A DNA stretch of 31,325 bases from Saccoglossus kowalevskii (taxonomy: Eukaryota; Hemichordata; Enteropneusta; Harrimaniidae), in assembly GCF_000003605.2 (NCBI RefSeq), contig NW_003155754.1:3588-34912 (forward strand). Reading direction: 5' to 3'. The notes under the pieces are model-generated. The model was not told the origin of the DNA and did not search any database. It saw only the letters and a program-made list of their open reading frames with translations. Below, one piece after another: positions 1,400 to 23,569 of this stretch. Made by a program: the position numbers and the translations under genes. Every line of letters starts with the position of its first letter. Within the stretch, counting starts at the first letter, position 1.

Positions 1400-1684
1400 A
1401 TGGTCGCCCTAAATATAAAAGCTTCTTTTATCACAAAGTCAACTCTGGAGCAGACACTTATATCATCTGTGGAATCATTGGGAATCCCGTAGTAGCAGAT
1501 AATGAAATGAAATTATGGAAATCGGGTACAACTGACTTCCTGTCTCCTACTACCTACGATGATAGTGAAAGATATACTGCTATTGGAAATTTTACTGGCG
1601 TTGTTGTTCAAAATGGTGATGCATTTTTCTGTGGTGCACCAGATATTGGATATACCGGATTCTCAGTTGTTTTACAACTATATG
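1400..1684 (+). CDS. Receptor exon: Ig-like domain
   Basis: A symmetrical phase 1-1 exon of 95 codons, typical of a shuffled extracellular module. It contains Cys in YIICG and the partner Cys in FFCGAP, with a Trp (KLWKSG) between them, as expected for an Ig-like beta-sandwich. It ends with GYTGFSVVLQLYG. One N-glycosylation sequon (NFT) is visible. The acceptor is TTTTAAG before 1400 and the donor is GTAAGT after 1684. The similarity to Ig domains of Tie-like invertebrate receptors is by pattern only. Confidence 0.7.
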
Positions 1685-4600
1685 GTAAGTTTAGATTTAT
1701 TATATCTCTTAAATATACATAATGAGGTAGTCACTATAATATGATAGTTTAATCATTTTACAATGCAACATTAGTGATGTTTTTCTGTTATATATTATGT
1801 TAATGATCTGTAAAAATTATATACAACGTCTGTATATGTGATCGTCATGCTAGCACCAAACACCAATGAAGAATATGTGCGAAGCATACATATGATATGA
1901 TTTTGTCAAGCATTCACATTTATTTTTCCCTAATATTTTAACTGGGGAAAATACAGCATCACAAGTATTATAGAGTAAATTGGAAAATATTATAATCACA
2001 TGAACATGCCAAGGTTTTGTGTTTTGTTTCTGAAAATCAATTATATATTATTTATTTGATTTCATTATGAATTTATTTGAGAATTTGGTTTGAAGAATAT
2101 ATATTTTTGTGTTGATGATTCAGGTCATGTTTGTCGACCAAAAACTGTATTAAATGAATCACTTCAACCTGAAGGTAATTTACACATCAACCACGCCTAT
2201 TACTTTATCAGATCGACCAAGATTTCAGACTGGTAACAAGCCTCAAGTATCAGATATTCAATCTGACCAGCTTACTGTGACCTGGAACAAATGGACTACT
2301 GATGATATTGGAGATGGTCCAGTTGAATCTTATAAAGTATACTACAGAGAGAGTGGTGAGAGTGACTGGATATCAGGTAAAGTTATACCAGTCAGTGATA
2401 CAAGTCAGATGAGTTATACATCAACCATCACAGGATTACAATGGTCTACTGCATATGAAATTACAGTGACTGTTAAAAGACCAGGCCCACTTGGTGAAGG
2501 AAGTAAAGACACAGCTATAACAGAAACTACATTGTGTGAAAGTATGTGTAATTTTACTCATAATTTAATTTTATGCTAGCTCAGTTTGTGTCATTCTTGT
2601 TGAAACTCATTTTAAACTTATTGAATGTCCATACCGTTATTCACACAAGTTCTGATTTATCAAAATGTATTAAAATTGAATGTGAAGATGAAACGACTTG
2701 CAGCACTGGCAGTTGTAATCTCATGGTGTGTTTGTGAAGTATATATTGTTTGGGCAGTGTAATTTTAGGTTATAACCGGCATGATCATGGTCGGACCTCA
2801 CAAATAGCACATTTAGAGATAATAACCACATTTGAGACTATCCTCTCCCACTAATAAATATGCTAATATAAATTTAAATGACGTATGCAAATACTGTGAA
2901 AAATATTGCATAATCAATTTGCTATAACTTGTGATGTCATAGCGACATGATTATAATAGACATTATTTTACAGTTGTCACCTTAACGCAATTAGTTACAG
3001 CGTGCCGTAATTTGCGATATTTTACGGGGTATTTTCATCATACCATATTAGGAAATGCGAATTCCACATATGGATATGATTAAGCGTTCTCTAAATACAA
3101 ACTTGGCTGCCACCAGGATTTGATAGAACTCCACACAAAGAAGTTCGCTGTTTCTGTTCTAAACTTTTTGGATTTCGGCATTCCCGTGATTTATCCTTGG
3201 AAGGAAAAGGTGTATAATAATAAGGTTATTTCGAGGAAATCTCAAAGTTTGCACTCAGATGGTAGGCTATCACATCGAGCACTGCTGCGCGTCGGTCGCT
3301 ACTGTCTTCTTGCATACTTTGAGTTGTCCTCGTAATAACCTCATAGTATCTATGGCTATCCTTTTATTGATCGATTGCACTCTGTGTATTATAATTTGAT
3401 GTATTTTACATGTCAGTTTAATTGTATTACAGTCCCACACAAACCAGTAATTATGAGTGTTTCATCACCTGAGTTGAAACAACTCGAAGTTCATGTGCAG
3501 GTAACCACCCATTGAACTACTTTATATCACATTACGCTATCGTAAGATTTAGAAATTTACATTATTGTTTTTTTTTTTTTGGCCTACGTATTTATGCGAA
3601 TTTGATTTTAGAAATATGTGCAAATTTGGTTAGTAACAGTCAAGAACATGTGGTTTCCTCTAATTAACATTTCATAAATGTATATTGCGATTTACATGCA
3701 ACTTGTCACAACATATAACTTGTTGCATACACATGATCCAATTATGGCAATTATGTAATGATTAATGATAGTGTTGACAGCTTCAAATGCGTCTTTGTTT
3801 CAATGTGGCAGATTCCTGGTCGTAGTGATATAAAGTGTAAAAAGTATGGTGTGGATGGTTACATTGATTACATAGAAGTGAAGTATAGAAAGACAGGTGC
3901 AGAGGGTGAATATGAGTCAAAAATTGAAGTTTACCACGAGAGTGTGAGTGGTCCAGAAGTAATCACTATTAATGATGTCTCATTATTACCGTACACCGAA
4001 TATGAAGTCATTGCCTCACTTAGAAATGCTGATTCTACAAGTCCACAGAGTAATTCAGTGACTGTTATATCACATGAGGATGGTAAGTTGAATTATCACT
4101 CACAACTAGAATACATGTAGGTACAGAATATCAGTACAGTACCAGAATGTAATTATTGATGAAGACAATAAATAGAATACCATTTTATATTATACGTCTG
4201 GCAGTGAAACAATAAAATTCATCCATGAACGCTACATGTTTCAATGCGCTATCTATATTTCATATACACTTGTATTAAAATCTCTGTATCAAAATCAGAT
4301 AAAATAATTCAACACCGGTAATCAGTGGCGTCTGGTTGTGTTTCTTTCATACTCAAATCCTACAATGGTCAAGCTTGGTATTTTATGTGTTGACCATGGC
4401 TGACCATGGCTACAGTTTATGATGAATACAGTAATGAATTGAATACTAAGACAATAGATACAAGTATGTTATGTATCTTAACTATTTACATTACATAGTA
4501 AATGTGTGTTTATTTGTTGCAAATATTATATACAAATCAATATCATATGTTATAGTTCCCCATGAACCTGCCAGCATTGATGTACAAAGCACGACTGAAA

Positions 4601-7600
4601 ACAACATCAGATTCACATGGACAGATCCTACCATATTGAGTGGTAATATTTTACAATATAGAGTAAGTAATTAATGTCCATTTGTCCACACGTTTTTATA
4701 GATTTACCTAATTACTGCAAATGCTTGATTCTTGTCAGCTACACCAAGAGTCATTTATCATTCAGCAGGATGAAGCCCAATAATTGGTTTTATACATGTA
4801 TTTATACTGCTATATGTTTCTGCAGAGAGACTGGGAGATTCAAATCATTACTACTCAAATTTGAGATGACAAAACAATAACTCGAACTGTAAACTATAAA
4901 AGTTTAATTGTCACCCTTGTGTAACATTTATTAAGCTTGGATTTATGTTAGTTACAATTAATAACTCTTGAACAATTTAATTTTATATTTTTATTTTTGT
5001 ATTGACATTATATTTTAGCTCCACTGTCAACTGAGTAATTATCCGTCGATCTCATCCATGTCAATTGTTTCCTTTTTCTTATTCTTCTTGAAACTGCAAG
5101 TCTGATTGCTTTGATATTATACATATATTCATGTATTCATCTCGTGATAATATCTTCAGTTCTTTAATTAAAACATGTGTTGTTAACAGCGGAGCTATCT
5201 CAGCCGATAGACTGCTTGTTTTTAATATTTATTTAATTAATGTTATAATAGATAACATATAAATCAGCTGACTGTGTATCCAACTACCGTGGTAGAATCT
5301 AAGGATATACTCGTTGACGGCAGCATTCATACACACACTTTAGAAGAATTACCACCAGGAACACAGTTTGAAATATCACTTGTGCAAGTACATCAAAGGG
5401 ATTTGGTAAACCTAAATCCATTATCTCTGGAACTAAACATTGGTAAGTTTATATTACGTTATATGATCATAATAATGAGAATGACAACTGAAAACACATG
5501 AACTAAATTATTTTATTCACAAAATACATGCATGATGGTTCCGATGAAAGTATCAGGCAAATACTATTTCTGCTCATCATAGAATATCAACCTCAGCAGT
5601 GCAGTTATTATTTTATTACCAGAGTGAAATATTGCAAATTATTCATGCAAACTAAATAGAATAATGGTCGCAGATATGAGGTATAACTGATAGGAGTCGT
5701 TTTATGATTTATATAATTTGACAAGTCAGATTACCAGTAATTAAACTATATGTAAGTCTGTAACATTCAAACAAGAATACATGAATTGGCCATGATCATG
5801 TTGCAATCTCTGTTAGAATCACTAATTATCAAGTCAGTTGGAAATAACTGTAAATGTAGGATAATATTATGAATACAATAATGACATTCATAATAATTTC
5901 AGGTATCGATGTTTCTGATATTCTGGAGGAGCCTCATATGACAAAAACCACTGCTACTATTTATTTGAGAAAACCGAAGTCAAACACAGACCTAAAGACT
6001 GATACACCACTTGTGTAAGTTACATACATATTTTAATATGATTGACGCATCATTGCGATTACATATAGCACTTCAAGAGGAAGATAAGATGTTATACATG
6101 AACATTAGACAAATGAAAATAGGCATCTTTCGCGATCAGTGATATTCGTCAAACATTTGTTTACATTTATTCACATTTCTATATACATTTTGCGATTTCA
6201 GTTATACAGTCAGTTATATTGTCACAACATTTACCAATTCACGCATATTTGCAAACCACCCTAAATCACTGTTTACCATGCCCGTAAGAGAGAAGGTATA
6301 ATGATTAGTGTGTCTGTATACTGTCATCTTCTTAGTCGTCTTTAACAATTTCCTGGGTCAGGGATAAATGGATTTTTTGTATAATCTTGCTATTGTTGCA
6401 TCAGTTAAATACATGTTCTGCTTATATGTAATAATGTGTTGCGACTTGTATACACTTATATTTTACGAGTTTTATATCATTCTTATTCATTTTTTCTGAA
6501 ACCATTAATCACAGTTTACACATACTGTGACATTGATTTTTGTATATTCTGCACTATTAATTTTTGGGCTTATTGTTTTCCCTATATTTTGGGCAATAAT
6601 TATTTTTGTTATACATTGTCTATTCCCTTATTTTGCTCATGGTAAAAACACAACTTATTCATAGATGTTTTTTTTTATTTAAAATATCTGTACCTTATGC
6701 TATATATTTCGATGCATTATATCAGTACAAAAATCCTCTGCAAATTCTCGTTTCTTATGCGGATGCCATTGCTAACTATTTTTGTGCTCTGTGTTTTTGC
6801 ATTGATGGGATTTGTTTGCAGGAATTCAACGTATCGTATCAAGTTTGAATGAGACTAACAACAAATCAGTCAGCAATGGCCGCTACTAAATAAAAGTTAA
6901 ATCTTGAGGCCAAACTTGTTATCAAGTAGTAATGCAGTTATAGGTAAATACGGACATTTAAGCTGGAGATTTGATTGAGCGGCATTTTCGGGATAGTAAG
7001 AATTGGAAGAACAAGCACGACAGATTACTTAGGACCTATAGTGGGTGGCATTACTGTTGTGTTGCGCAGTGTAGTGTAGTAGAAAATTGTCAAAACAAGA
7101 ACTACTCCAAAAATGTGCTAACTTGGAGCATTTGCATAATGTTCTCAAAGTACAATATAGAAATGTGATTGGTTTAAATCAAAGTGGAAGATTCCATTTC
7201 CATATTAACGAGTAATTAGTATTTTTATGGGATCAAAAGTTATAAAAAGAAGCGGCAAGACCAACACCTAACTTGTAACATTAAATCAATAAACAAGATG
7301 CAATGTGACACACTGTTATACAACATAGGTAAACAGTAGAAATCTGAACCATACATGTAAATTGTCACAGTGCGAGACATTATTGCTATATTATATGTAT
7401 ATGAGCAAGTTAATCGATTTTTTTATTTGTTAAGGGAATAACACGTTAGGTGGATCCTTGCTTTCTTATATCATTCTACTATTAAGCCTCATTGACTGAA
7501 TGCCAACACGAGGACTTATATATTGAATCTTATCCGCGTTACACCATTTTATTCGACATTTTATGGAATTCCACTTTTAACATGTTATCAGCTATTTTTC

Positions 7601-10600
7601 AAGCATTCAGATTTTATTCAACATCAACATTTTTTTAACATCACACATAATGAATACTGATGCACCATTGATTCAAAATGACCGACTGGTGGTCGTGTTT
7701 ATTTTCATGTAACATTAACCAGTTTCCAGATATACCTGGGCCGATTTGGTTTAAAGTAGTTACAACGACAAGACATAATGATATATAGAGTACATGTGCA
7801 TTTTGAGTTGTTGATCATTTCAAATGACGTTTAGCCAACTAGAGGACATTTCCTAACATTTATCAGACACAACTGGTCAGAAACAAAGTTGGTATTGTCT
7901 TCTCTCATGTTTTGGATAAAAATAGCGAATTGGTTGTTTTAGTTTCCCCGTGCTTCCTACATTTGTATTTACCATTTATCAGACAAAACTGGTCATATGC
8001 AAAGTTCGTATTGTCTTCTCTCATGTTTTGAATCAGAATCGCGAACAGGTTGTTTTAGTTCCCTTGTGCTCTGTACCTCTGTCACAGTTACATTTCCGTC
8101 CATTTTGTTTAAGTTTGGTATAGAGCCGAAATTTAAATTGTGTTAATATTTATATTTAGTTGTGGGGTTAAATTAAAGTTATCTAATGACCGCCAGCCAT
8201 TTTTTGTCAAAAATCTCAAATCACGAAATATTTACATATTATCAACCATTTTTCAATAATGCCTTTGTGAATCTCATTGAAACTAAGTTTGTACTTTCCC
8301 AAATTTTCGTTTGTTACAAAGTATTAATATAAGCACATACAATTTTAGACTATGTCCTTGAAATTAACTTATTTATATAATGACACTTTATATTTGGAGT
8401 ACATAAATTTTGACTCAAAATCGTTACCATAGTGTTAATTGCCTTGAGCATAATTCTTTTTTTAATTTCGTAATTTTTCAGGAGGTATATTGTTGTTGTT
8501 GAAGAGAAAAGGCAAAAGAGAAAGCGGGATTTAGAAGAGAATCAGTATATCACAGCATCGTTTCCACTGAATGAAATCCCTGATCAACTTATACTGGGTG
8601 ATGGTATGGAATATAATGGTTATGACAATAAACCATTAACACCTGAACAACAATATGTCATATATGATGGGTTTGCAGTGTATACTACAGGGGTAAGATA
8701 GTTAGTATATTGTTGCGTCATTTCCATTACATAAAATCCCGGGTAACCTTTAATAGGGGAAGGTTTAGAGAGCAATGGTTATATTAACTCATGAATAACA
8801 TTTCCTCTGACATACAAAACAGCTACTCGTAATTCATCAACGAATTACCCAAAATCAAATCAGTTTTGTTATCACGCAATATGTGCTGTTTGCATTTTAG
8901 TGTTTCTTGTGATTATGTAAATATACCAACTAATCTTCCGCTGTTCATAAATAATATACATATTTGTTGTATTTTCGCTATTTATGCTGGGGTTCGATCA
9001 TTCATCTCCCAGTCACATTTCTATTTATTTGCGATACAGGTAGAAGAGTTGATGCTGCATGATAGTCAGCTGACTTCGTTTACAGGTATATTTCATTGCT
9101 CAGAAAAAGTATGTAATGCGAGCTGACATAACTGGAGGTGATATCGATTCTATTTTAGTAAATGTTGTTGGTAGATGACTGTATTACGTTACTAACAATG
9201 CAGGTCAGATTGCGACATCCTGAATTATATTTAATGTATTCACAATTTACTTTTTGTAGCTGCTGGGAACATGCATAGAATTACAGATGAAGATAATAAA
9301 TTACCCATGTTAATTGGAAGTTTTGCTGTTGGTGTCGCTGTTGGTGTAGTTGTGACAATTGTCATTGTGGTATTGTTATTATATGTAATACGTCGTTCGA
9401 AATCCCATAATAAATACAAAGAAAGGTAATCAAATTTCACTTCATTCAACTATATACATGTGATCATTCATTAAACAAAAACTTGATTGTGACACAACAA
9501 GATGAACAAAATAGGTAATACTTATTACGATGGATTTTCTGTACTATAGTATATTAATATAATATATATATGCTTGTTTTGTTTGTATGCTGTTTAGAGA
9601 CGAGAGTCGCGATGACAGTGCTCATGCTAGGAACGAGTCAAACGAAATGAGAGGTACAATATTTTTTTCATCACATGCAAACAATGATCTTATATTAAAC
9701 TAATAAAAGGACGAATAAATTGATGTGCAACATTTGGTTGGTGTAATGTAATTACAGATTACGGGGAGATCCAAAAAAAAGAGAATGACCACTATCAAGA
9801 CCTAGGAGACGTCCAAGAAAACAATTACGAAGAGTTGAAAATGAATGAGTACCGGTAAGTACACTGAAATCTATGGTTTGCAATAAATTTGTCACATTAA
9901 TACATTGCAGTTCGGTGCAGATCACATCCTCAGTAAACTGATGTAGATTCCATCCTCATTCAGAAATAAATTGTAATCATACTATAAGTGATTATGTGAA
10001 AAAATATACCAAGGTTGAAATAACAACATATGAGATGATGTAAACAATATACGAGACAACTGACAAGTAAAGTTCATTGTCAAATGAGAATAGCCCTTGT
10101 GGTATTCCAAATTGCGTCATGTATAAAATATTTTATATCATTTAATTTCTGATATCTCTATTATTTTTTATAGCAATGTCGCAAAATATTCAACGCAAAC
10201 ACGAAAACAAAACACTAAGCCGATTGAAATCAGAGGTAAAAAAATAAATCATTATTATACATAAATTACAATGACTCAATTATATGCGAATTGAATTTTC
10301 ATACAATAAATGTCAATTTATGTATTTAATATTTTTGCTAGTAGTTGAATATTTTAATATGCTTATTTGCATCGCAGTAAACAAGAGACCAATTACTTAA
10401 TACTGAACAGTATGTATGCATAATTTGAATACTAAAATACAATTTAATATAATTATATATATATGGGCAATATTGTGCATATCAATGTAATTCGCACCTC
10501 AAATCAATATTCCTACCACAGTTATCTTTTTTGAATTTACACTGTTTCAACTTAATTCGGTGTCTGTGACTATATAATATTAGTTTGTATATAAACATGA

Positions 10601-10737
10601 TGAAGTTCACGAACGCCCAGGTGACACAAAATATGTATATACACTTCCTTACAGAACCAACGAAAGGTCCACAGGGGCAATACCAAGACCTTCAGAGTGT
10701 ACAAGAATCTCAGTATCAGTCGCTTGGCAAAATTTGA
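1400..10737 (+). CDS. Ig/FN3 receptor with ITAM-type cytoplasmic tail (5' incomplete)
   Basis: Multi-exon type I membrane receptor. Inferred exons: 1400-1684, 2124-2174, 2212-2541, 3433-3500, 3812-4082, 4556-4662, 5268-5442, 5903-6014, 8482-8692, 9040-9085, 9260-9425, 9598-9653, 9758-9854, 10174-10235 and 10655-10737 (stop TGA 10735-10737). All junctions are GT-AG and every phase matches. Domains in order: Ig-like, short Cys linker, FN3 x4, transmembrane helix, and a tail of about 105 residues with six YxxL/I motifs. There is no kinase or phosphatase domain. Phosphorylated paired YxxL motifs in known receptors recruit tandem-SH2 Syk/ZAP-70 kinases, so a signalling receptor is inferred. No exon with a signal peptide was found, so the N-terminus is missing. 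The ligand is unknown. It is related by architecture to Tie-like and type IIB RPTP-like ectodomains but is not one of those enzymes. Confidence 0.85.
2124..2174 (+). CDS. Receptor micro-exon: Cys-containing linker
   Basis: A 51-nt phase 1-1 exon inferred from the acceptor TTCAG at 2119-2123 and the donor GTAATT at 2175. It reads HVCRPKTVLNESLQPE, with one Cys and one N-glycosylation sequon (NES). It is followed by only 37 nt before the next acceptor, so the intron would be unusually short. The phase fits on both sides. Alternatively the exon could be skipped, because it is symmetrical. Confidence 0.45.
2212..2541 (+). CDS. Receptor exon: FN3 domain 1
   Basis: Encodes about 110 residues with FN3 hallmarks: LTVTW in strand B, SYKVYYRESGESDW in strands C-C', and LQWSTAYEITVTVKR (Leu-x-x-x-Thr-x-Tyr-x-h-x-V) in strands E-F. 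The domain is held in one exon with a phase-1 donor GTATGT after 2541. FN3 domains in such receptors form the rod-like ectodomain. Confidence 0.85.
3223..3341. repeat. Inverted repeat (hairpin) in receptor intron
   Basis: Arms 3223-3248 and 3316-3341 are reverse complements with three mismatches in 26. They enclose a 67-base loop that is more GC-rich than its surroundings. It may be the core of a small foldback element. No coding role is seen in the open frame that overlaps it. Confidence 0.6.
3433..4082 (+). CDS. Receptor exons: FN3 domain 2 (two exons)
   Basis: Exon 3433-3500 reads PHKPVIMSVSSPELKQLEVHVQ in two parts of one frame: strand A ending SVSSPELK, then QLEVHVQ. It joins in phase 0 to exon 3812-4082 (IPGRSDIKCKK...). 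Strand C is IDYIEVKYRKTG and the Tyr corner region is LLPYTEYEVIASLRN. The expected strand-B Trp is absent. The donor GTAAGT follows 4082. The intron splitting the domain, after strand B, is a common FN3 intron position. Confidence 0.8.
4556..5442 (+). CDS. Receptor exons: FN3 domain 3 (two exons)
   Basis: Exon 4556-4662 reads VPHEPASIDVQST, then NNIRFTWTDP (strand B with Trp) and ends NILQYR. It joins in phase 0 to exon 5268-5442, which starts LTVYPTT and contains LEELPPGTQFEISLVQV (FN3 E-F region). I chose the acceptor AAATCAG at 5267, because the nearer ATAATAG at 5251 would put a stop in frame. The split position equals that of FN3 domain 2. Confidence 0.75.
5903..8692 (+). CDS. Receptor exons: membrane-proximal FN3 with furin-like site
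   Basis: Exon 5903-6014 (GIDVSDILEEPHMTKTTATI...) joins in phase 2 to exon 8482-8692 across the largest intron of the gene, about 2.47 kb. The joined strand C reads RRYIVVVEEKRQKRKRDLEE. The second exon continues QYITASFP, ILGDGMEYNGYDNKPLTPEQ and YVIYDGFAVYT. From memory of the family, the pattern IVVEE-basic cluster ... AAEFP ... GDNxxYNGYxNxPLxPxxxYxIY is that of the last FN3 of type IIB receptor tyrosine phosphatases, where furin cleaves at the basic cluster. Cleavage here is inferred from RQKRKR. Confidence 0.75.
7857..8088. repeat. 116-bp tandem duplication in the largest receptor intron
   Basis: The sequence from 7857 (CATTTATCAGACACAACTGG) recurs from 7973 (CATTTATCAGACAAAACTGG). Similarity continues through TATTGTCTTCTCTCATGTTT and GGTTGTTTTAGTT, giving a period of 116 bases. 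The two copies have diverged modestly. No other function is visible in the intron 6015-8481. Confidence 0.75.
9040..9425 (+). CDS. Receptor exons: juxtamembrane and transmembrane helix
   Basis: The 46-nt exon 9040-9085 (VEELMLHDSQLTSFT) leads in phase 1 into exon 9260-9425. That exon carries a hydrophobic run from about MLIGSFAVGV to VIVVLLLYVI, roughly 25 residues, followed by the basic stop-transfer RRSKSHNKYKER. The orientation is therefore type I with the C-terminus in the cytoplasm. The helix has no acidic or basic residue, so it need not pair with a charged adaptor. The signalling motifs are in the same chain. Confidence 0.85.
9598..9854 (+). CDS. Receptor exons: cytoplasmic tail with overlapping ITAM motifs
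   Basis: Exon 9598-9653 is a charged spacer (DESRDDSAHARNESNEMR). Exon 9758-9854 encodes YGEI, then seven residues (QKKENDH), then YQDL, then seven residues (GDVQENN), then YEEL. YxxL/I-x6-8-YxxL/I is the ITAM consensus, so the exon holds two overlapping ITAMs sharing the middle tyrosine. A further YRNV follows, formed across the next splice (Y at 9850-9852). Acidic residues at +1 or +2 resemble substrates of Src-family kinases. Function is inferred from the motif only. Confidence 0.8.
10174..10737 (+). CDS. Receptor exons: tail end with second ITAM, and stop codon
   Basis: Exon 10174-10235 is a basic linker (NVAKYSTQTRKQNTKPIEIR). Final exon 10655-10737 encodes YQDLQSVQESQYQSL, that is YxxL-x7-YxxL, an ITAM ending five residues before the C-terminus (GKI, TGA). 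It matches the exon at 9758-9854 in the form YQDLxxVQExxYxxL, which suggests an internal exon duplication. No AATAAA polyadenylation signal stands out within about 300 bases downstream of the stop. Confidence 0.8.
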
Positions 10738-12187
10738 ATCATGAAACAAGCATGTTAGCTATAATATGAAACAGAATGAACATGTACATTATATATCGTA
10801 CTAACAAGTTACTCCCAACGACGTGTCATCATCATATATAACATTATGTGTTAGGATTACATATTATCAAATATGTAATTCTAAAAAAATATGTGTAAAG
10901 TAGGATTTTTTGATTACCAGCTTCGTTTCTCTACAGAATACTTGATAATCATTAAGCAAGATACAATATAATTTGTATTAAATTGGTGTATGCCTAGACA
11001 TATCTACCCAGGACTGGTATTAAATTATGAAAACCCAAAATAAGTCTGAACGCGCATTGAAATTCTAAGCGTCTGTATTGATATGTACTGAATCGGCCGC
11101 GGTGTATGTAAACACTCCTAATTAATAATTTGAAACACAAAATATCATTGTATTATACAATGTAAAAAAGCATTTATTTCAAACAATCAACTTTATCAAA
11201 AATGCGCATTGAATGACGTAAAAATAAATGTATTAACAATTTATTGTTGCGATAATCTCTGTTTAACATTGTTAGGGGTATGCATAGAAAAATTGATATT
11301 ATTTGAAATCCTTTTAGCGTGACAATACAAATGGCTTGATCACATGTGAATGCATATGATGATAATTTTAAAACCAAATAAAGATGAACAATAATTATAA
11401 TCGATAATTCACGCCGAAAAAAATCTACTGGTATTATATTTTGTTTGCTCGCACCCATTGTTAATTTTGTAGTTGCATTTGGTAGTTTGTGTCTGTATTT
11501 TCTTTTTTCAATATTTCTATCAGTTATTATAAAATCGTTTAATAGCACGATGTATCTTATTATATATACCCAAAACCCAAAAAAATGACTCGATATTATC
11601 CGGCTGTGTGTCAATGCTATGAATTTGAAAAGTTTCCATTTATGATGGTACATTCTGGTCAAGTTCGAAGGTGGATTCAATTTACCCTAAGGCTGTGTTA
11701 ATACATTATTCGCTGCGTGGAAGTTACTATGATTTTTCCTAAGCCCCTTAAGTGGGAAAATATATAAAGAAATATGAATATCAAGTTGGAAGCCACTCTC
11801 TTGGAATCTAAATCAATGAATATGTTTAATTGCCTGATGGCATTGTCAGGATGATGCGGATAAAAACATTAATAGACAGACGATCATCAACTGACTCCAC
11901 TGATGAAAGTGTCAGTAACCGGTGTTATATTATACTAATATCACCAAGAACACATCAAAACCAGAATACGTGATATAATACCGTAGTCCTGTAGTTTGTT
12001 TTCAATTTGGCACCAGACAATATCACTGACAAAGCAATCACAGAAGTAATGCTTTACTTCGAGAAGTAAGTTTAAGTAAGTATAATTGTAGATGATGCTG
12101 TGATTGGTGGATTTTCATTATTTTATTGTCTATATTATTTGTTTCATACAGGCCCAATAACTCTTCCCACTGATATTAGTCGTGTGC
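10738..12187. other. Stretch without a recognised gene
   Basis: Intergenic AT-rich DNA downstream of the receptor. A 168-codon open frame on the minus strand (11174-11680) has a Leu/Ile/Lys-heavy composition typical of translated AT-rich DNA and shows no domain. Confidence 0.5.
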
Positions 12188-12190
12188 AGA

Positions 12191-12337
12191 ATGTGGTCAA
12201 CTTGGCAGTCTGCTTGTGAATTTCTATGTAAAGACACTTCTAGTAATCGCACTTTTCGTAGTTGCCGGCATGGGAGTCGTCGCGATCCAAGAAGCACATT
12301 ACATTTGTACATTGTTTTTAATAATATGTGTAAATAA
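12191..12337 (+). pseudogene. Thrombospondin type-1-like fragment
   Basis: One frame reads WSTWQSACEFLCKDT, then SSNRTFRSCRHGSRRDP and later a Cys before TAA at 12335-12337. The pattern W-S-x-W-x3-C-x3-C-x6-R-T-x-R-x-C fits the N-terminal half of a thrombospondin type-1 repeat (WSxWSxC...C...RxRxC). Four Cys are present instead of six. Possible acceptors are GTGCAG at 12189 and ATTAG at 12179. No matching neighbouring exons or donor were found, so this is an isolated exon, a decayed one, or a chance match. Confidence 0.35.
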
Positions 12338-14568
12338 ATTCGTTAAAGGTAGCGAGGCTATTATTTGTGTTGACAATTACGATTTTCACTTCATTCATTA
12401 ATTGATGAAATGCACTATAAACTTTCTTATGATAAAGTCAACATAACATAGAATTCCATGTAAGTTAGTTAAAATGTAGATTTTCTGAAAAAAAAGCAAG
12501 GCAGCCTCCGTAGTGTTTGCCAAAATCAACAACACAGGTTTAATCTGTGTGTCTATAAGTTTTAAAGATTAACTCAAGACAATGCAATTTGTATTCGCCA
12601 TCATTTGCTATGTTGATATTTGTATCCATTTTATTCCATGTGAGTGCAAGCAATTAATAGGAAATGGGGTTCTTCCATATTGAGACAGCGTTCAGTCAAA
12701 AAATACTAGTTCGAAAATATTATCTTCATGATTAATTTTTCCCGCTGCCTATTACAGCATGAAAGGTTCTACATACTAGAAGTTCTAATCACACACACAC
12801 ACACGGCTGTAGATATTGAAAAGTCCCGAGAAATATGAATGTTATTGTTCTCAATCTGATATTAGACTACTATCTATAGTCATAGACATGTTAGTACGTC
12901 CATGCTATAGTAGTCTGATTCCTGAACAATTGATGTAATTTTTCAAAACTAATCGTTCTGTGAGCATCTATTGTACACATGATTGCGCTTGATCGAGCCT
13001 TGGCTTTACGTTGCCGACTGCTTGATTGTTTCCCGGCCTTAACTGAATTATTGCTGTCCGTCTGCATTTTTGGGTCTTACACTCTTTCGCCATCTCATGT
13101 AATCCATACAGTTGGTAAGTCCATGTTATCAGTAGCTATCTGACACACAATGAGTATTTACAAACACGTGAGTGGTTGGTCTCCGCACCTGTTTGTTTCG
13201 CAGATAGGCATCTGCATATGAATGTGCCAGACACAAGGTCACACAACCACTAAAAAAATCATTGATTTTGGTGTTCTCATCTGCCAATTTTATCGAATTA
13301 TAGCTCTCCCATTCCTTATTTTGTTTTTGGTTTCCATTACCCTTATACATTTGGATGCCTCTACACATGTTAAAACAGATCTTGATGTGAAAACAAATTG
13401 TTTGTGTCGATAAGCAAGCTTGAAATATTTTCTGTGACTTCATCGACGTTTTCTAGGGGTTTATGATTTTCAAAATAAGACGTCTTTAACAAAAAAATAA
13501 CGTATACTTATTGTCGTCGGATTAACACCAAATTTTCGCAGCTTTAAGACGACAATGAGAGAAACTTGGATGTATCCAGATAAACTATTTTGTTGATTAT
13601 TTACCAACGTGTTGTGGTTTTGAGTTGGGGCAATGCAACTAAAACTGAAATTAAAATTCAGCACACTACTTTTTTTAAACGCGTTTCTTGAATAAAACTG
13701 ACCAGACACATTCAATTTACTAGACAATTGAACAACTAGGAAAAGTGAAAAAAAAAACTTCTTATCACCAAGCATAAATGCAGAAAAAGTATTGTTTTAC
13801 CTCTGATTGAGTAACGCGTCGTAAAATGAAGATACGGGCATGAAAAACTCACTTTTGAAAAGCTTGAAGTCTGGCGATTCAAAAAATATAATGTTTTAGG
13901 CATTTGAGACCACCCACATTTTCAACAATTTATGTCTTTTGATGATTCATTGGAACGACGTTCAAAGAATTCTACCATCTAATAAGGTGGTTAGCCAAGC
14001 TGATTTTTTAAACGAGTTAATTACTAATTATATATGGTTGGGTGACTATCTCTACTCTAATGTTTTAACTCGACACTCGTTGAAAAATTGTACTAAAAAA
14101 ATAGTACTAAAGTGACATTATTTTGTTGTCCGTAGTACGTGTTTTCATCGTCTTGACTCTTTACTAACCATATACCCACGTTGGTGTGTAGTGGGAACCG
14201 CGTTTAGCGTTTATTGAATAATATTAGTGCCCGTCAATCTAAATGTTACATGAATTGTATAACTGGTTTGTTAAAATATTGATTATTATTGGGTGTCTTT
14301 GGTTAGAATTTGACCCGAATCTCATGAAATTTGTTGTCAGAAATGGGATAGTATAGGACTGAAAAAAACGAACGCTGTTTATTACTATATATGCAACTAC
14401 TTTGAGTTAAAATATAATGTGCATTTTGAAACGAGTTCACATAGGCCGCCGCCGATATTTAGACTAAATTAAACTTTATTTTAGCACTAAATTAGAAAGA
14501 AGAAGTATATAACCCACAACTCTCCAGTCAAACAGATCTATGCTGACGTGTCATGTCCAAACGTTATA
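12338..14568. other. Stretch without a recognised gene
   Basis: No supported gene was seen. There is a short (CA)n run near 12790-12804 and a small imperfect inverted repeat around 12853-12921 (AGACTACTAT against ATAGTAGTCT). The open frames on both strands at 13129-13775 are AT-rich and show no domain. Confidence 0.5.
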
Positions 14569-15226
14569 GCCCCGTCACACCATAACGTTTTGGTCAGCGT
14601 TCTCTGAATGTTCCAATCGTCCAATTTACGAGCGTTTTGGAACGAGGTAGACACATACAGCGTTCGATTAACGAGTGCCCCTAACATATGACTAGCGTGT
14701 TCCTAACGCACGAGGAGCGTGTAATGAGCGACCAAGTAAGATACCCCTGGAAATCATTGACGTGTGCTAACGTGTCACTAGCGCGCAACGAACGACTTTT
14801 AAACGTTAAGTGAGCGTGTTGAGCGTGTATCTAACGTTAGGTCGTTAATTTGACGTTAGTCGCACGCTTTATGTGCGCTAGGGTTACGTTCAGCGATCGT
14901 TGGCAGGTCGCTAGTGAGTTGTTCACTACAAAGAGAGCGATTGGTAACAACTAAGTAACGCTAGAGCAACGACTGACTGACGATTGTCGAACGTTAGCAA
15001 AACGATCGAAGAACATTATTTAACGTTTAACACCGTTTAAAAATAAACGTTGAAGAACGCTGGTCTCAAATGAGAACTTTTGTGCATGTTTAAAACTTTT
15101 TTTTGGATCAGCGTTCTCCGCCGATATCCGACGTTCACTAGCGTTCTCCCAGCGACTTTGGGCGACTACCAACGTTTCCTCAAACGCCAGAGAACGCTAG
15201 CCAGAACGTCATGGTGTGACTGCGCC
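14569..15226. mobile_element. CpG-rich non-autonomous DNA element with inverted ends
   Basis: The left end from 14575 (GTCACACCATAACGTTTTGG, then AGCGTTCTCTG) is nearly the reverse complement of the right end around 15183-15221 (CAGAGAACGCTAG ... AACGTCATGGTGTGAC). This gives terminal inverted repeats of about 35 bases and an element of about 660 bp. The interior is packed with ACGTT, AACG and AGCG hexamer variants, unlike the CpG-poor surroundings. No open frame for a transposase is seen, so it behaves like a MITE-type passenger. A clear target-site duplication was not resolved (left flank TATA, right flank TTTA). The superfamily cannot be named. Confidence 0.7.
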
Positions 15227-15577
15227 TTTAGTGGTATAATAGTATCACTTGTATGCCATTTCCCATTTGCCTAGTAATTTAGTATAGTTAATCGCACGAG
15301 TTAAAGGCCACAGTTTTTTGTTGCATTAACGGCTTACACAACGCATCCCCATGCATAAAACGATTAAATTGCAAGAGATTTTTAGTGACTGTTTCGGTTG
15401 TGCGTGAGATTGTGCCACTTCAAATTTGCATGAGAATGCTCTTTGAGATTCAAATTAGTAAAACTCATCTGCGTTCATCGAATACGATTGGATGTTAAGT
15501 TATATGACCAATAAGCCTTATTTGCTGAATGGTCTTTTCAAATAAACTCCACTCATTGGTCAATATTTTGAACACAT
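15227..15577. other. Spacer between the two mobile elements
   Basis: No gene or clear repeat is seen. This may include the 5' untranslated part of the Crypton-like element that follows. Confidence 0.4.
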
Positions 15578-17152
15578 TTGAATTTTCTACGTGTCAAAGC
15601 ATGGTCTTGTAATTTTGAATGCAGGCAGCGCTCAGTGATGGTCGAATGCAGTGACATTGAGAGATTTTGCTCTCAATACGACGGAAAAGAAGATTTTAAG
15701 TTAACAAAACAACAAGAACGTCAACGTTTCGGTTTACCTGTAGACAATGAACAGATGGCTGCCATTCAGAATTCGCGAGTGCCCAAAAATACGCGTAGAT
15801 GTACTAACTGGGGAGTGTCTGTGTGGGATGAATAGGGCCGAGCCAGAAATGAACGAGTCGAGAAGCACGGGGTAAGCAGTAGTGACGTGTTCACATTTGT
15901 TCCCAGATTATGCAGCGAACTTGGTGTACGTGAACTTTCATTTTGGTTGTGTCGCTTTGTTGTCGAGGCTCGTCGACATAACGGAACAGAATACCCATCT
16001 AATAGCCTGCGTGTGCTTTGTAGCGCAATTCGGAGATAATTACGTGACGAATGCAAACGATTTGACTTGTGCTTTATGGATACACATGCTCGGGAATTTA
16101 TGGAATTCTGGACGGTGTATTGAAGAGTATAGACAGACGGGGAATAGGTGTTATTAAACGTCAAGCTGAACCATACACAGATGATGATGAAAACAAATTG
16201 TGGGATAAGGTTTTTTTCCATAGAGTCTGCGACAAATTTGAGTTATGCGGTCTACTTTTATGTGTGTAAAGTGTTCGCTCTCCGAGCAGTCGATGAACAT
16301 AGTAACCTTACAGCCGAACTTGAATTTAATGGTAGACCGTGTAAAAATAATCGAGGACTGTATTACTCGCGGAAAATCCCGTATAAAAATGTGCGCCAAT
16401 ACGGTGATCCTTCCAACACACGTTGTGTTGCTCAGCTATTGAAACGTTATTTGCAATGTATTCCACCGAAAGGTTCCTTCTACCGACGTCCACTGACGTC
16501 CAGCGGAGGGCTCAAATTTTCTAAACAGAAGATTGGAGTAAATACTTTACGACAATATCAAAACAGAATGTGTGATCTGGCTGGAATAGATGGGTATCAT
16601 GATACTGGACACTCGGGTATAGCAAGTTTGTCTCAAGTGATTCTTGGGTGGGTGGGATCTTTGGATGGGTTCAAATGTGTTTGAATTTCGCCGATTGAAA
16701 ATAAACATTGTACATTGTGAAAACGTATTTCAAAAGCGATTCAAATAAATGTCGGTATATTTACTTCTCAAATCATTCTTTTCATACTTTTAGGTTACTG
16801 CGGCGACTTCTTGTAAGAAAAAGGCTTTGATGAGCAACTAATAAAAGAACGCACTGGTCACAGATTGGATGATGGGTGGAACATATAAACGAACAAGTAA
16901 CTCTCTTCAGAAAATCGTATCTGATGCTCTCCAACCTCCACTACCGAAAGCAAGTACTTCAGCCATCGTAATTGACGATTCAGATTCCGTACACAAGCCT
17001 AAGGTTGAAAGATATGAACAGCCACCGCCTGAACCAGCGACTGCAACATCACATGCAGAATTCAGAGAAATGTGTCGTTCAAATGATTGTTGTTCTAAAC
17101 AAATTAAAATTAAGATCCAGGACGGAAACAAATGTATCAATATTGAATTGTA
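15578..17152 (+). mobile_element. Decayed Crypton-type tyrosine recombinase
   Basis: Three frames carry consecutive parts of one protein of the Crypton/DUF3504 class (relatives: KIAA1958, ZMYM2, QRICH1). Part 1 (15578-16108) has NSRVPKNTRRCTNWGVSVWD and ELSFWLCRFVVEARRHNGTE, with stops at 15833 and about 16040. Part 2 (about 16105-16215) has GVLKSIDRRGIGVIKRQAEP and DDDENKLWDKVF. Part 3 (about 16220-16680) has VFALRAVDEHSNL, CVAQLLKRYLQCIPPKGSFY and RMCDLAGIDGYHDTGHSG. After an interruption come GFDEQLIKERTGHR (about 16828-16869) and, in another frame, TYKRTSNSLQKIVSDALQPP. The Arg, His-x-x-Arg and Tyr positions of a tyrosine recombinase are all visible but in different frames, so the element is dead. 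Confidence 0.8.
16625..16793 (+). other. Intron-like interruption in the Crypton relic
   Basis: Family alignment from memory expects HSG-K-VTAATS to be contiguous. Here TGHSG (about 16608-16622) is separated from VTAATS (from 16794) by about 170 bases that begin GTATAG and end CTTTTAG. The ends look like a GT-AG intron, but direct splicing does not restore the frame. It may be a decayed intron or a small insertion. Confidence 0.4.
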
Positions 17153-17255
17153 GTCTTGTGGTACTTTTTTCCATAGAAAGTATAATTAAATTAGTGCGAT
17201 TTGCACCCTCCTTGTGATTTGTGTGATTAAATGTATATACTTTGTTTAATTTGTA

Positions 17256-17375
17256 ATGCAAATTGTAAACGGTTACACTTCTATTGATATGTTAATTGTA
17301 AACGCTACACTTTTGATACAAAGTGTAGCATTTACACTTTGCATATGAATAAGTGTGACCGTTTACACTTTGCAT
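17256..17375. repeat. 120-bp imperfect palindrome built from four related motifs
   Basis: The left arm from 17256 (ATGCAAATTGTAAACGGT...) is the reverse complement, with a few mismatches, of the right arm ending at 17375 (...ACCGTTTACACTTTGCAT). The centre is at about 17316. Each arm itself repeats a motif of about 20 bp, TGCAAAGTGTAAACGNTNACAC, so four copies are present. A partial fifth lies at about 17390-17410. It starts about 100 bases after the last readable Crypton codon, so it could be part of that element's 3' end, or an independent foldback insertion. Confidence 0.75.
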
Positions 17376-17509
17376 ATTTGCGAATGCGTCGCTTTTTACA
17401 ATTTGCATATAAATTCACCCTGCTTGTTGGCGAGAACAATGATGCACGTGACCAAACGTGATATAATTGTTACTAAATGATTCTGTTATGCCACTAATTT
17501 TATTGTGTA

Positions 17510-17812
17510 TGCAGGGTGGGTTTGGATAACTAGAAATAAGCACGAAGTCATAAAATGAAGTTATGCAACTTATTGTACAAATTAAGTATGGGCCATCTTG
17601 ATTATTTCAATGTTTATCCGTTAAAGAAGATCTACAATTATCCTTTTTTTTGTACATGTGTTTTTAGTTGCTTCCTCGATGATGTATTTACAAAACAACG
17701 AATCCAATCAATTGTCTATGATTGTCTTTTTTTATGTTACTGAATTGTATTTTCTACTAAGATCCCACTCTGGGATACGGTTTCAATAAAGATTATTACT
17801 ATTATTACATAC
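17510..17812 (+). mobile_element. Probable truncated non-LTR retrotransposon 3' end
   Basis: The segment ends GATCCCACTCTGGGATACGG, then TTTCAATAAAG and a short (ATT)n tail (GATTATTACTATTATTACAT). A polyadenylation-like hexamer followed by a trinucleotide tail is characteristic of LINE (CR1/L2/Jockey-like) 3' ends in invertebrates. No reverse-transcriptase sequence is present, so it would be heavily 5' truncated. The left boundary is a guess. Confidence 0.4.
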
Positions 17813-18424
17813 GTATTTATAATAATGACCTCAATGTGTTTTGATATAGACATAAACGAAAACCTGGAATCACGCAATATGGTTTATAGATAATATCTAG
17901 CGCAATACAGAGTATATCATGTACACAAACGACCACCGTGGTCCCGTAACGGTTGAAAGCACGAGATCAACGTTGTTAGTTTCTTACCTCCCAAATAGTG
18001 TTCCATTGAGTTCACTATATCACTAATTAATGGTACCATGATGTAATCGCTAGCATTCAAAAGTATGAGAACAAAGTGAACTATTTTAAGACTACTCCAA
18101 TGATTCAATGTGGTCCTTAAAATCTTTTCAATCAAGGGATACCATGTAACAGATAAATGGGTTTAATGAGAGTTTGCCTATTTTGATATTTAGTTCAGTT
18201 CATGGCTGATTATGTATCACTGGTTACAATAGTTGGCAATGTCAGTACAACATGCCAATGACTATTATGATTGACCCATTCGTGAAGGTATATTTTTAAT
18301 AACCATTGTTGACCGTGTAAGGGTTAGTCCAACAAACTATCAACACCAAGGTAATTGTTCCATAATACAGAACAGAAATAATCCTCTTTCTAAAGACACA
18401 TATTTGACTTTGAAAAAAAATGAA
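17813..18424. other. Stretch without a supported gene; one weak minus-strand exon candidate
   Basis: On the minus strand, 18120 down to about 17990 reads a hydrophobic segment (KIVHFVLILLNASDYIMVPL) followed by SDIVNSMEHYLGG and a good donor (GGGAG then GTAAGAAACT). It could be an isolated transmembrane-type exon, but no partner exon or family was recognised. Nothing else is seen. Confidence 0.25.
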
Positions 18425-19055
18425 AACAATACAATAAAAACACTGAAACTGATTAACTTTACTGAACTTATACGATACTTCAATTAAACTACATTAAAAC
18501 ATTGAAGCTGTCAACCAATACTTCACTTATAGAATACTGCAAGTAAAAATGTTAAATCTGACTAAACCTAAACTTATACAATATTATGATGAAATAATAC
18601 AAAAAGCTATAGTAAAACATTCAGCTGACTAGCTGCACTGAATTCGTACAATACTACAGTAAAAGCATAATATTACAGCGGAGTTATAAGAACACTGAAT
18701 CTCATTAACTGAAATGGATTCATGCGGTATTACAATGAAAATATAGTCAATTATTGAATCTGACTACCTCTACTGACTTATACAATACTGCAATGAAGCT
18801 GCAGTAAAAACTTTGAATGTGTTTATTTGTACTGAATCATTTATTACTTCAATGAGACTACAGTAAAAACACTGAATCTACCTATCTGTACTGACTTATA
18901 CAATACTGCAATGTCACTGCAGTAAAAACTCTGAATGTGATTATTTGTACTGAATTATTTATTACTTCAATGAGACTACAGTAAAAACACTGAATCCACT
19001 TATCTGTACTGACTTGTGCAATACTACATTGACGTGGCAGTAAAAATACATCTGT
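18425..19055. repeat. Minisatellite, about 59-bp unit with 118-bp higher-order period
   Basis: About ten diverged copies of a unit resembling CTGACTTATACAATACTGCA, then ATGAGACTACAGTAAAAACA and CTGAATCT follow one another. In the last part the units alternate in type. For example, TTATTACTTCAATGAGACTA starts at 18841 and again at 18959, exactly 118 bases (two units) apart. The left copies are more diverged, which suggests recent expansion at the right end. Confidence 0.85.
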
Positions 19056-20190
19056 CTGCCCGACCACCAATCTGACTGTATGTCCGAAGTCATACTTCAG
19101 AACCCTCTGGACCTCTTTGCATAGTACTTTAGCAGTTATTTGATCCAGAATGGCTCACTGACAGTTTGTTCTTTATCTGGTCGTCTGGTGGTCGTATTAT
19201 GTTTTTAGCATTCAACTATATTTCATCGACTTTTCCATTCATATTTGGTAAATACGTGCAAATAAATCAAAGACTGCCGACTGGCAGCAATATTTTTTTG
19301 TAAATGTCTTTTCTCGGACATGCTTTCTCAGTTTTGTTTTAAATTTAGCACATAAATTATACATGCTAAGATGCATGATCATTCATTTCATGAACGAATT
19401 TAAAATGAGAGATTTGACGCGTTTGACATGTTAAGATAAATTTCCATGACAATTAGTTTCACAATCAGTTCAAAGATGGCTGATTTGCAGTCATCCATTT
19501 TCTGGTCATACTACAACTACCAGTTACAGCTGAGCGAAACAACTACTCTGCATAGTCACCAATAATGGTTACAGTGAGTATGAAGTAATAATTTTATGAT
19601 TGTTCCCCCTATAAGCACTATGTTATGTTTGACATACATTTTTTGGGGATGGGAGAAAAGAATACTTCATGATAAAATTTAAATTAAGTAATTAGCAAAT
19701 ATGGATGCAGAGATCGCCACATCTATCCTGATTATTTAAAAATTAATGTGTGTGCAAATAATATTCCCAGCCACTGCATAGCCATGGGACATATAAGCTA
19801 TTCTAGACAAAACATAACAGCATTGACCATATGAATGAAACAGATACCTGAGAACCATGATAGTTTCATTAGTTTATGTAAACTGTGACCCCGGACTGTG
19901 ACATTCGCCGAGGGGTCTTTCGGCCACATCGTTTCGTAAATAATGTAGTTCTCCTCACTACAATAATCAGAACAAATTCACCCGTGTACTCGCGCTCTGT
20001 AGACATACTCCAATTTCGTCTTTCGTATTTGCTTGAAAAAATCAACCCGGGTTAAGCTTAGTTCATCAATACAACGACAATGTCATCAGACGATAATGTC
20101 CTTACAAATTGTCTTATCTCAACAGTGAAATCCGCTGTTATTGGCAATGTGCCATTTTATTTGATGCTTGTTACCTCACAATTTCTCTTT
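19056..20190. other. Stretch without a recognised gene
   Basis: No supported gene, RNA gene or repeat is seen on either strand before the assembly gap. Confidence 0.45.
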
Positions 20191-20240
20191 NNNNNNNNNN
20201 NNNNNNNNNNNNNNNNNNNNNNNNNNNNNNNNNNNNNNNN
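20191..20240. other. Assembly gap of 50 N
   Basis: Fifty consecutive undetermined bases, a scaffold gap of conventional length. The true distance is unknown, and order and orientation across it depend on the assembly. Confidence 1.
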
Positions 20241-20480
20241 AGATTAGAAGGCAATGCCTGAGACGAAGTACTCATAAATACTTTCTTACGCGTGGAACTA
20301 TTTATTTGTTTTATAATTATGACAATAAACATATACTGTTGAAAATGTTATTTAGTTTAGAGCTCCGTGGAGTTGTCTTTATCGTCATATTTTAACATAA
20401 GTATTCAATCTGGAACGAGCTCGTTACTTCGCTCTTACGCGTAGGGATATGCAAATGTGACCTTTATGCAGTCTTAGTCT

Positions 20481-20488
20481 TATAAAAA
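20481..20488 (+). promoter_or_regulatory. TATA-box-like sequence upstream of the Tudor-like frame
   Basis: TATAAAAA lies 89 bases upstream of the ATG at 20570, a spacing compatible with a core promoter plus a short 5' leader. The support is sequence match and position only. Confidence 0.3.
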
Positions 20489-20569
20489 CAACTGGTGTCA
20501 AGTTGAATTTTCAGTTACGCTTTATAGAAGCGTACATGATTTGTTAATTTTTTCCGTTATTGTATCAGT

Positions 20570-20765
20570 ATGGCCACTTTCACATATGAACGCGGAGACA
20601 TCATCGAGGCAGTTGATGGAGCGAATAGATGGGCAGTCGCCAAAGTACGACAAATCCACAGACAGTAACACGGAAGTGACTTTTCTAGTGTGGGCGAAAC
20701 GTTATGATGTGTCTTTCCTGCCTGATATGGTGCGCCAGAAAACTCCTGTAACTGAGAGAAAGTAA
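20570..20765 (+). pseudogene. Tudor/chromo-barrel-like domain fragment, frameshifted
   Basis: From ATG 20570 (A at -3, G at +4) one frame reads MATFTYERGDIIEAVDGANR, WAVAKVRQIHRQ and stops at 20666-20668. The frame shifted by one base (to 20765) reads NTEVTFLVWAKRYDVSFLPD, MVRQKTPVTERK, stop. Joined conceptually, the pattern GDxIEAxDxxNxW-x-AKVxxI ... VxFxxWxxRYD is that of Tudor-knot/chromo-barrel/MBT-type small beta-barrels that bind methylated lysine. A one-base indel near 20650-20668 separates the halves. It is either a pseudogene or an assembly or sequencing error in a small gene or first exon. Confidence 0.45.
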
Positions 20766-22770
20766 AATACTTGTACTCTTTTCCATTTATATTGTTTTAA
20801 GACATATTTTAAATGATCACGAAAAATGTGCATGATTTCTGTACGATCGTGATATAGTAACACAAACGCGCACTCCACGTGATTTTCTAAACTGACAGTT
20901 CAATCGATGTCTAAAAGTAGTTCCAGTCAGTGCACATTTGTTTACACATTGTTATGTGGCATAAGATAACAATCTGTATAACTAATTAAATAAGACTAAT
21001 GTCCTGATCATAAACTGATAACCAAGATAGGAAGTGGGGTACATTTTTTAATGGGTTTTTCCCGTAATTTCATTCATCTGTGAAGCATTTGTAATTAAAA
21101 CATGCAATATTTGTTATTCGCTTTCGTTTTATTCAAGTTCAATAATATTGTGACTTACTGTACGCTGTTAGACTGTCAACAGTTCTCGGGTCTAATAAAG
21201 CGTCACTTTCGTTTTAACGAAATTCCGAAGACATTTCAAGCGAGGGCCGTAAGGCCAGAGAGACTGTTATAGCATATAACGCCCTCATGCGGTATTACGA
21301 GGAAATTGCCCGGAAACGTTCCTGCTAAGACTTGTGATTTCTGCTACTGTTTTCTACCATGCAGACCAGACGACAGTGGAGTTTTGTGGTCAAAGTTTAT
21401 ACTTCCTGTTTATTAGTTTGAAAGTGACTCTGTATTAGGCCCGAAAACTGCCGACAATCTATACGTTGTTTCAAAATACAGATTCTGAAGTGCGACGACG
21501 GCAATAGTGCAAAACCACCATAATGTATTCTTTTGTTTCATTTTTTGTTTCTATTCAGCCAATTTGAGCATTTCCCGCTTATTTCTTGGATTGCCAAGAT
21601 CGTATGAATGTATATTAAGGGCACATTGCAGCTGGTTCTGTGCCATTATTATAATTTGTGTTGTATCGCGTTGTAAGTCTCCGGATTGCCAGCGGGCTTT
21701 CTGTTAGTAATACAATCCTGAGTATTTTACAAGTCGTTGTCCTATGGTGATTGGTGCTGATTGTGTAATAGATAATTTTGCATAATAATTTTGGCTATTT
21801 TCCATAATTGCAACGTATCATCTCCATTATTATATCCATGGTACCTTGGTGCTCAATAAAGGAATACATTATTCCAAACAATCAGCTGCAATTACGTCAT
21901 ACATTTTACTGGTATTGAGAATGCGTTACTATTATTTTATATAACATGTTTTTCTCTCGCTTTAAAATTCAGAAAAGTGTTGCTGTTTCACCGATTTCAT
22001 ATATTTTGAAACCACGTGACTAAAGCGCTATTTACTATCTATGTGTGTAATATTATGACCAAAAATTGTTGTATTTTGTTCTAAAACTCGGAAAGATTAA
22101 CTTATTAAATATCTTCTTTAAAGAAACCCGGCCGGGGGAAAATTCGTCCTGGCGTGTAGCTAGATGAATTGGTGCTGCGTACGAGCGTCGTTTTTTTGTC
22201 GTGCACACAGATGTTTAAGTTGATTTAACATTTACCTAACCAATGTACTGTATCAGTTATATCATGCCCAGACTATTATAGAAGAACACAATCAATATTT
22301 ATTTGGTCTATATATGGAAGAAAAAAAACACTCGATTGTACAAGTTAAAATAACATTATTAGTAGATAAATTATATTCATGAACATTAGAATTAGTCCTT
22401 TCTCTTTATCACTTACTTGTTCTTGGAATTGCGAATAATGTATAATATATTCCATTAAATATGCAAATACATGTTATTATGAATGTTATGTTGTATTAGA
22501 CGTATTAATCGTACTATGTTTGGGTCATTGTGTATATATGACATATTACGCTCTCTACTTTATCACATAAAAACCCAGAATATTTATCGCTTCAAATTAG
22601 AAAAATTATGCTAAATTCTTCTGTTTATAAACCAACAAAACAATGTTAAGCTCATTTGGAAACATTATATCAGTTTTATGAAGATGTAAGTAATAAATTT
22701 TGGTTACATGTTTTTTACTTTTATTCATAGAAAATATTCTAAACACTGAAACTGTGTATAATGGTTTAGT
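20766..22770. other. Stretch without a recognised gene
   Basis: No supported gene. A slightly more GC- and CpG-rich patch lies at about 21170-21330. It has no recognised RNA or protein feature. Confidence 0.45.
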
Positions 22771-23228
22771 CTAAAAAAAATAGTCGTCTTCCTTTGATGT
22801 TTGGTCGACTATATAGTCTTGCACATATCTAATAGTATGGTCACATTCGCCTGTAAGTCATTAAAATTATTGTTTTAAATACCGAACAATAATTGTGTTT
22901 TATATCAATTGAACTGAAGTTGCTGATCAATCAACAAGATATATTGTATAAAAAAAATAACACATACGTTTGAGCATACTCTTTACATTTTCCGCCAAGT
23001 TTCTGAGTCCTATTGAATCAAGCACTCTGAGAATGGCACCAGTTGAAGCGTCTCGTCCTTGTACCTCCTGCCATCTACGCAGCATGTGGTACTTTCTGTC
23101 CCAAATACTTTTTTTATTTGCAGAAATGTTGTCAATATCAGCGTCTGTCAAGCCAAGCCTGAGTCCGAAATGCTGCCAAGTGTCAACTGGTAAATTAGTT
23201 GCAATATGTAGTATAACATCCTGTCTAA
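22771..23228 (-). CDS. PIDD-like exons: death domain and C-terminus
   Basis: Exon 23228-22968 encodes a complete death domain: VILHIATNLPVDTWQHFGLR, LGLTDADIDNI, WDRKYHMLRRWQEVQGRDAS, LRVLDSIGLRNLAENV. The conserved Trp after helix 1, the 'W...M L..W' helix 4 and the 'L...L...GL..LAE.V' helices are all present. It joins in phase 1 (donor GTATGT, acceptor TTACAG) to the last exon 22850-22771 (ECDHTIRYVQDYIVDQTSKE, DDYFF, TAG). Death domains mediate homotypic assembly with adaptors such as RAIDD or RIPK1 in vertebrates. The partner here is unknown. Confidence 0.85.

Positions 23229-23501: not shown

Positions 23502-23569
<68 letters not shown>

Follow-up and report, generated by a model that had tools for sequence, protein, structure and literature searches.

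Receptor protein tyrosine phosphatases of type IIB (R2B), namely PTPRM, PTPRK, PTPRT and PTPRU, share a plan of a MAM domain, an immunoglobulin (Ig) domain, four fibronectin type III (FN3) domains, a transmembrane segment and tandem phosphatase domains (PMC10815196; this and the other papers named here are cited from excerpts). Signalling through the immunoreceptor tyrosine-based activation motif (ITAM) and a Syk-type kinase works in flies, where its docking logic has been demonstrated for Draper (PMC4503800); Syk and related kinases have been reported from sponges and hydra (PMC9486129), and Hydractinia has candidate single-chain ITAM receptors (PMC12065747). We analyzed a stretch of 31,325 nucleotides (nt) of the Saccoglossus kowalevskii genome (contig NW_003155754.1, the whole stretch being called the window below), in which a predicted gene at 1400-10737 of the plus strand has features of both kinds of receptor. 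Its product is probably a membrane receptor of type I that joins an R2B-type ectodomain to a tail of two ITAM modules and would signal as an ITAM receptor.

The predicted receptor, its ectodomain and its tail

A single open frame runs on the plus strand from 1400 to a TGA stop at 10735-10737 over 15 predicted exons (one of them doubtful), and the predicted product of 705 residues, which lacks its 5' end, has no stop or frame break across them. In the protein, an Ig-like exon is followed by four domains of FN3 type, a transmembrane exon and a tail of four exons (56, 97, 62 and 83 nt), as follows:

1400..1684, plus strand: Ig-like exon with two cysteines in Ig-like spacing (by eye), the first exon found
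2124..2174, plus strand: possible cassette exon (linker), doubtful
2212..2541, plus strand: FN3 domain 1, the best stretch for Pfam fn3 and within the PTPRM FN3 alignment
3433..3500, plus strand: FN3 domain 2, first part, positioned via the PTPRM alignment
3812..4082, plus strand: FN3 domain 2, second part, positioned via the PTPRM alignment
4556..4662, plus strand: FN3 domain 3, first part (splice borders, PDB sequence alignment)
5268..5442, plus strand: FN3 domain 3, second part (frame-keeping acceptor, PDB sequence alignment)
5903..6014, plus strand: membrane-proximal FN3-type domain, first part (splice borders, Pfam scan)
8482..8692, plus strand: membrane-proximal R2B-type FN3 domain, with RQKRKRD (Fn3_PTPRU; PTPRM and PTPRD alignments)
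9040..9085, plus strand: exon at the end of the ectodomain (splice borders, phases)
9260..9425, plus strand: transmembrane exon, then RRSKSHNKYK (hydropathy)
9598..9653, plus strand: tail exon, module 1, first part (splice borders, module alignment)
9758..9854, plus strand: tail exon with YGEI-x7-YQDL-x7-YEEL (9760, 9793, 9826)
10174..10235, plus strand: tail exon, module 2, first part (splice borders, module alignment)
10655..10737, plus strand: last coding exon with YQDL-x7-YQSL (10681, 10714) and the TGA stop

The last five of these, the transmembrane exon and the four tail exons, had been proposed in an original prediction made from the letters of the window, and their AG acceptors, GT donors and phases do agree as far as the TGA. 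Phase-1 introns (phases computed from the model, domain borders being our reading) delimit the units of the ectodomain, which are the Ig-like exon, FN3-1 (one exon), FN3-2 (two), FN3-3 (two) and the membrane-proximal domain (three). The doubt about exon 2124-2174 comes from the following intron, which would measure only 37 nt; omitting the exon preserves the frame. The acceptor of the second half of FN3-3 was set at 5268 because the candidate at 5252 breaks the frame and 5268 restores it. The large intron holds a 116-nt repeat in 1.8 copies (7857-8070).

A profile search of the ectodomain, one of the checks suggested with the original prediction, gave matches above cut-off to Pfam fn3 (7.5e-19, whole protein) and to Fn3_PTPRU (2.3e-7 with the whole protein, 2.8e-9 with the membrane-proximal piece), and the best match among PDB sequences is PTPRM (2v5y, E 8.4e-14), in an alignment that spans FN3-1 to FN3-4. 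The locus has, then, the Ig-like and four FN3-type units of an R2B receptor phosphatase, with the R2B type of membrane-proximal domain, the Ig part being recognized by eye only. The ectodomain had been likened to those of both Tie and the R2B phosphatases; the PTPRM and Fn3_PTPRU matches bear out the second likeness, and the first has to be dropped, as no Tie receptor is among the 34 distinct PDB sequences that match at E<=0.01, or among the four that the Ig-like exon matches at E<=10. Two other Pfam matches were set aside: PTP_tm of PTPRJ on the membrane-proximal piece (0.011) is under its cut-off, and Pur_ac_phosph_N (30.8 against a cut-off of 30) lies on a stretch better matched by fn3 and was read as the same FN3 domain. 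The assignment of exon 1400-1684 as an Ig-like domain is by eye, from its cysteine pattern; folded alone from its single sequence, this exon gave a mean pLDDT of 36.9, too poor for use. RQKRKRD in the membrane-proximal domain is predicted to be a furin-like site, since it fits the furin rule, and furin is said, in the title of a paper in the reference list of PMC11298714, to cleave a receptor phosphatase. A 231-residue piece of the ectodomain had no confirmed relative among its pattern matches in two contig collections (57 in genome_contigs and 11 in viral_contigs), which says little about animals because both collections are of bacteria, archaea and viruses.

Hydropathy along the protein peaks in exon 9260-9425 (3.27 over 19 residues). 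The tail, tested as a stretch of 110 residues, contains five YxxL/I motifs in three pairs, YGEI-YQDL (from 9760), YQDL-YEEL (from 9793) and YQDL-YQSL (from 10681), each with a spacer of seven residues, so that all three conform to the ITAM definition of two YxxL/I motifs with 6-8 residues between them in a cytoplasmic tail. The pairs starting at 9793 and 10681 had been pointed out before, and the description was if anything somewhat understated, the additional pair YGEI-x7-YQDL having been missed; the frame, the Pfam matches and the motifs together support its proposal of a single chain with an FN3 ectodomain, a transmembrane segment and paired ITAM-type motifs. When the tail residues were shuffled 200,000 times (spacers of 6-8 allowed), at least one pair arose in 0.66% of the shuffles and at least two arose in 0.0085%, but three never did. 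Neither PDB sequences (E<=10) nor Pfam families (E<=1) gave a match to the tail, and matches of the transmembrane and tail region to FAM176, Protocadherin, SIT and other families were under their cut-offs and were discarded. By codon score the spliced tail frame ranks best of the six frames, and its score was not reached by any of 5,000 length-matched intronic stretches; this control, with its codon bias trained on the ectodomain and transmembrane exons, is partly circular because the background was learned on those same introns.

No phosphatase or kinase domain was found in the protein of this gene or in 20 of the 22 plus-strand open reading frames (ORFs) of at least 60 amino acids that start in 10738-22900; the other two, 20062-20247 and 20165-20395, both hold the N run of an assembly gap (20191-20240) and were left out of the scan, which coding exons of fewer than 60 amino acids would also escape. 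Within the sequences scanned, the earlier statement that there is no catalytic domain therefore holds: the frame stops at 10737, the tandem intracellular phosphatase domains of an R2B receptor have no match, and neither does the tyrosine kinase domain of Tie.

Exons 9598-9653 and 9758-9854 make up one module of the tail, 10174-10235 and 10655-10737 the other, and the intron phases of the two modules are alike (2, then 1). The local score of their alignment was reached by none of 20,000 shuffles; with the motif tyrosines and leucines held fixed, 18 of 20,000 reached it. In a core of 15 residues nine are identical and six differ; four of the identical residues have identical codons and five (both tyrosines, both leucines and one valine) have synonymous ones. 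The tyrosines and their spacing are thus conserved between two internal copies, the nearest available stand-in for a comparison of homologues. Outside the exons the two stretches show little if any similarity at the DNA level (lowest blastn E 0.013). This alignment of the modules, with the tyrosines and leucines kept through synonymous changes, suggests that a two-exon module was duplicated in tandem long ago to give the tail and that selection has acted on the motif. Removal of 9598-9854 or of 9758-10235 leaves the frame intact and a single ITAM pair in place, and the skipping of 9598-9653, 9758-9854 or 10174-10235 singly shifts the frame. Transcripts with fewer ITAM pairs may arise by splicing, which, given a two-exon module that can be removed in frame, could determine how many ITAMs the receptor carries.

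Proposed signalling and alternative readings

If the receptor signals as we favor, it would cluster on contact with its ligand, perhaps homophilically as in the R2B phosphatases, and a Src-family kinase would phosphorylate the paired tyrosines. A Syk- or Shark-family kinase with tandem SH2 domains could then dock on tyrosines that lie 11 residues apart and trigger an activating signal, the number of ITAMs perhaps being adjusted through in-frame skipping of the two-exon module.

Several points weigh against this interpretation. The gene structure is a prediction from genomic sequence, and its AG/GT exon borders were picked by eye, in part so that the frame stays open. The 5' end of the gene was not located, the signal peptide and MAM domain having been probed in two ORFs only: neither of the two plus-strand ORFs of at least 60 amino acids before 1400 has a Pfam match, and in 1-1399 we recognized no exon for a signal peptide that had a convincing phase-1 donor, so the gene begins either outside the window or in an overlooked exon. 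The Ig-like exon has no Pfam match at E<=1 and no meaningful PDB match at E<=10. YxxL motifs are also used in endocytosis and by other SH2 proteins, and a lone spacer-7 pair is ordinary by chance somewhere among all six reading frames of a window like this one. Seven such pairs are present, against a mean of 2.7 and a maximum of 8 in 400 dinucleotide shuffles, and the motif triple, present once, arose in 6 of the 400. Since spacer-7 pairs are this frequent in shuffled windows, the motif by itself means little; the evidence is the density of motifs within a spliced tail downstream of a transmembrane segment.

The main rivals are inhibitory docking of single SH2 proteins and endocytic sorting. 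The YQDL, YEEL and YQSL motifs match the YxxPhi pattern of sorting signals for clathrin adaptors, so the protein might be mainly an adhesion or scavenger receptor; sorting presumably does not require pairing at a fixed spacing, yet the duplicated modules retain theirs, and we consider this explanation improbable. It is also unlikely, though less so, that the tyrosine motifs act singly and dock SH2 adaptors or phosphatases in an ITIM-like (immunoreceptor tyrosine-based inhibitory motif) or SHP2-type manner, making the receptor inhibitory or a scaffold. The YxxL/I core is common to ITIM and ITAM, and ITIMs, hemITAMs and lone core motifs occur in the FcoR receptors of Botryllus (PMC12065747). Single docking has no need, however, of an exact 11-residue repeat in both modules, and the ITIM rule I/S/V/L-x-Y-x-x-V/L (PMC6851185) is fitted only by the last motif, YQSL, because the residues two before the five tyrosines are R, D, N, G and S.

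That the gene is a decayed or truncated receptor phosphatase with an incidental tail would agree with its R2B-type ectodomain and with the lack of a phosphatase domain in the scanned sequence. Such decay is very improbable, given a 15-exon model without a stop or frame break, a coding bias that runs on into the tail, and tyrosines and leucines preserved through synonymous changes between diverged copies. A more specific form of the ITAM receptor reading, which we offer tentatively and regard as doubtful, is that an R2B adhesion-phosphatase lineage has had its phosphatase replaced by a multi-ITAM tail, so that a contact ectodomain recruits a kinase and the ITAM number is varied by skipping of a symmetric two-exon cassette. 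Were this true, the receptor could counteract the animal's genuine R2B phosphatases where cells touch.

Neighboring sequences

On the minus strand, exons of a neighboring gene at 22927-26093 encode a Death domain (PF00531, 1.8e-13) and match UPA_2 (0.069) and ZU5 (0.2) below threshold, a pattern as in ZU5-UPA-Death proteins. Broken ORFs on the plus strand at 15572-17153 include a QRICH1 domain match at 15836-16036 (1.7e-7, barely over its cut-off) and, at 16148-16684, a sub-threshold match to DUF3504 (3.9e-6); they are perhaps the remains of a Crypton-type element. A foldback-like element, perhaps a miniature inverted-repeat transposable element, lies at 14569-15225 (38-nt inverted arms, 84% complementary, with 581 nt between them). 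There are also a tandem array of 59/118-nt units at 18755-19046 and an AAT run at 23491-23569. No tRNA is present in the window, nor does any Rfam family reach its gathering score there.

Comparison with known receptors

The original prediction regarded such a receptor as a candidate for an undescribed phosphotyrosine signalling system. That claim falls, because single-chain invertebrate ITAM receptors have been published (Draper, CgIgIT2, Dscam and FcoR). Drosophila Draper is likewise a single chain, with an ITAM that acts via Src42A and the Syk homologue Shark, but it has a CED-1 family ectodomain and an NPXY motif in its tail (PMC4503800). Oyster CgIgIT2, of the Ig superfamily, also carries its own ITAM in a single-chain receptor; it differs in having five Ig domains, and the excerpt does not mention FN3 (PMC11999971). 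Arthropod Dscam resembles the protein described here as an Ig/FN3 receptor with a predicted ITAM (shrimp) or ITIM/ITAM (Daphnia) and with skippable tail exons, but has ten Ig and six FN3 domains, and the ITAM consensus is given there merely as YXXL (PMC6851185). The Botryllus FcoRs are invertebrate receptors whose tails have YxxI/L/V motifs, hemITAMs and ITIMs that can be swapped by splicing, but they form a multigene family with Ig and sushi ectodomains (PMC12065747). "ITAM" in one mussel paper proved to be only part of sample names.

Among vertebrate receptors, CD3 zeta has several ITAMs in one tail, as here, and the docking logic that is proposed here, but its ectodomain is very short and it works within a complex. 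The protein shares with the R2B phosphatases a set of four domains of FN3 type, the special membrane-proximal one among them, with an Ig-like exon before them, and presumably the furin-like site in the membrane-proximal domain. It differs from them in its ITAM tail, in the lack of a phosphatase domain in the downstream scan and in that a MAM domain was not seen, although one may lie upstream. An R2B-type ectodomain on a duplicated ITAM tail would illustrate how a phosphate-removing receptor design can be rewired for kinase recruitment, and would bring a cell-contact receptor into the early history of ITAM signalling. In the open-access literature, the only literature searched, we recognized no description of an R2B ectodomain with a duplicated ITAM tail. 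The published non-vertebrate ITAM receptors seen in these sources are few and have other ectodomains, and the joining of an R2B-type ectodomain to an ITAM tail looks unusual.

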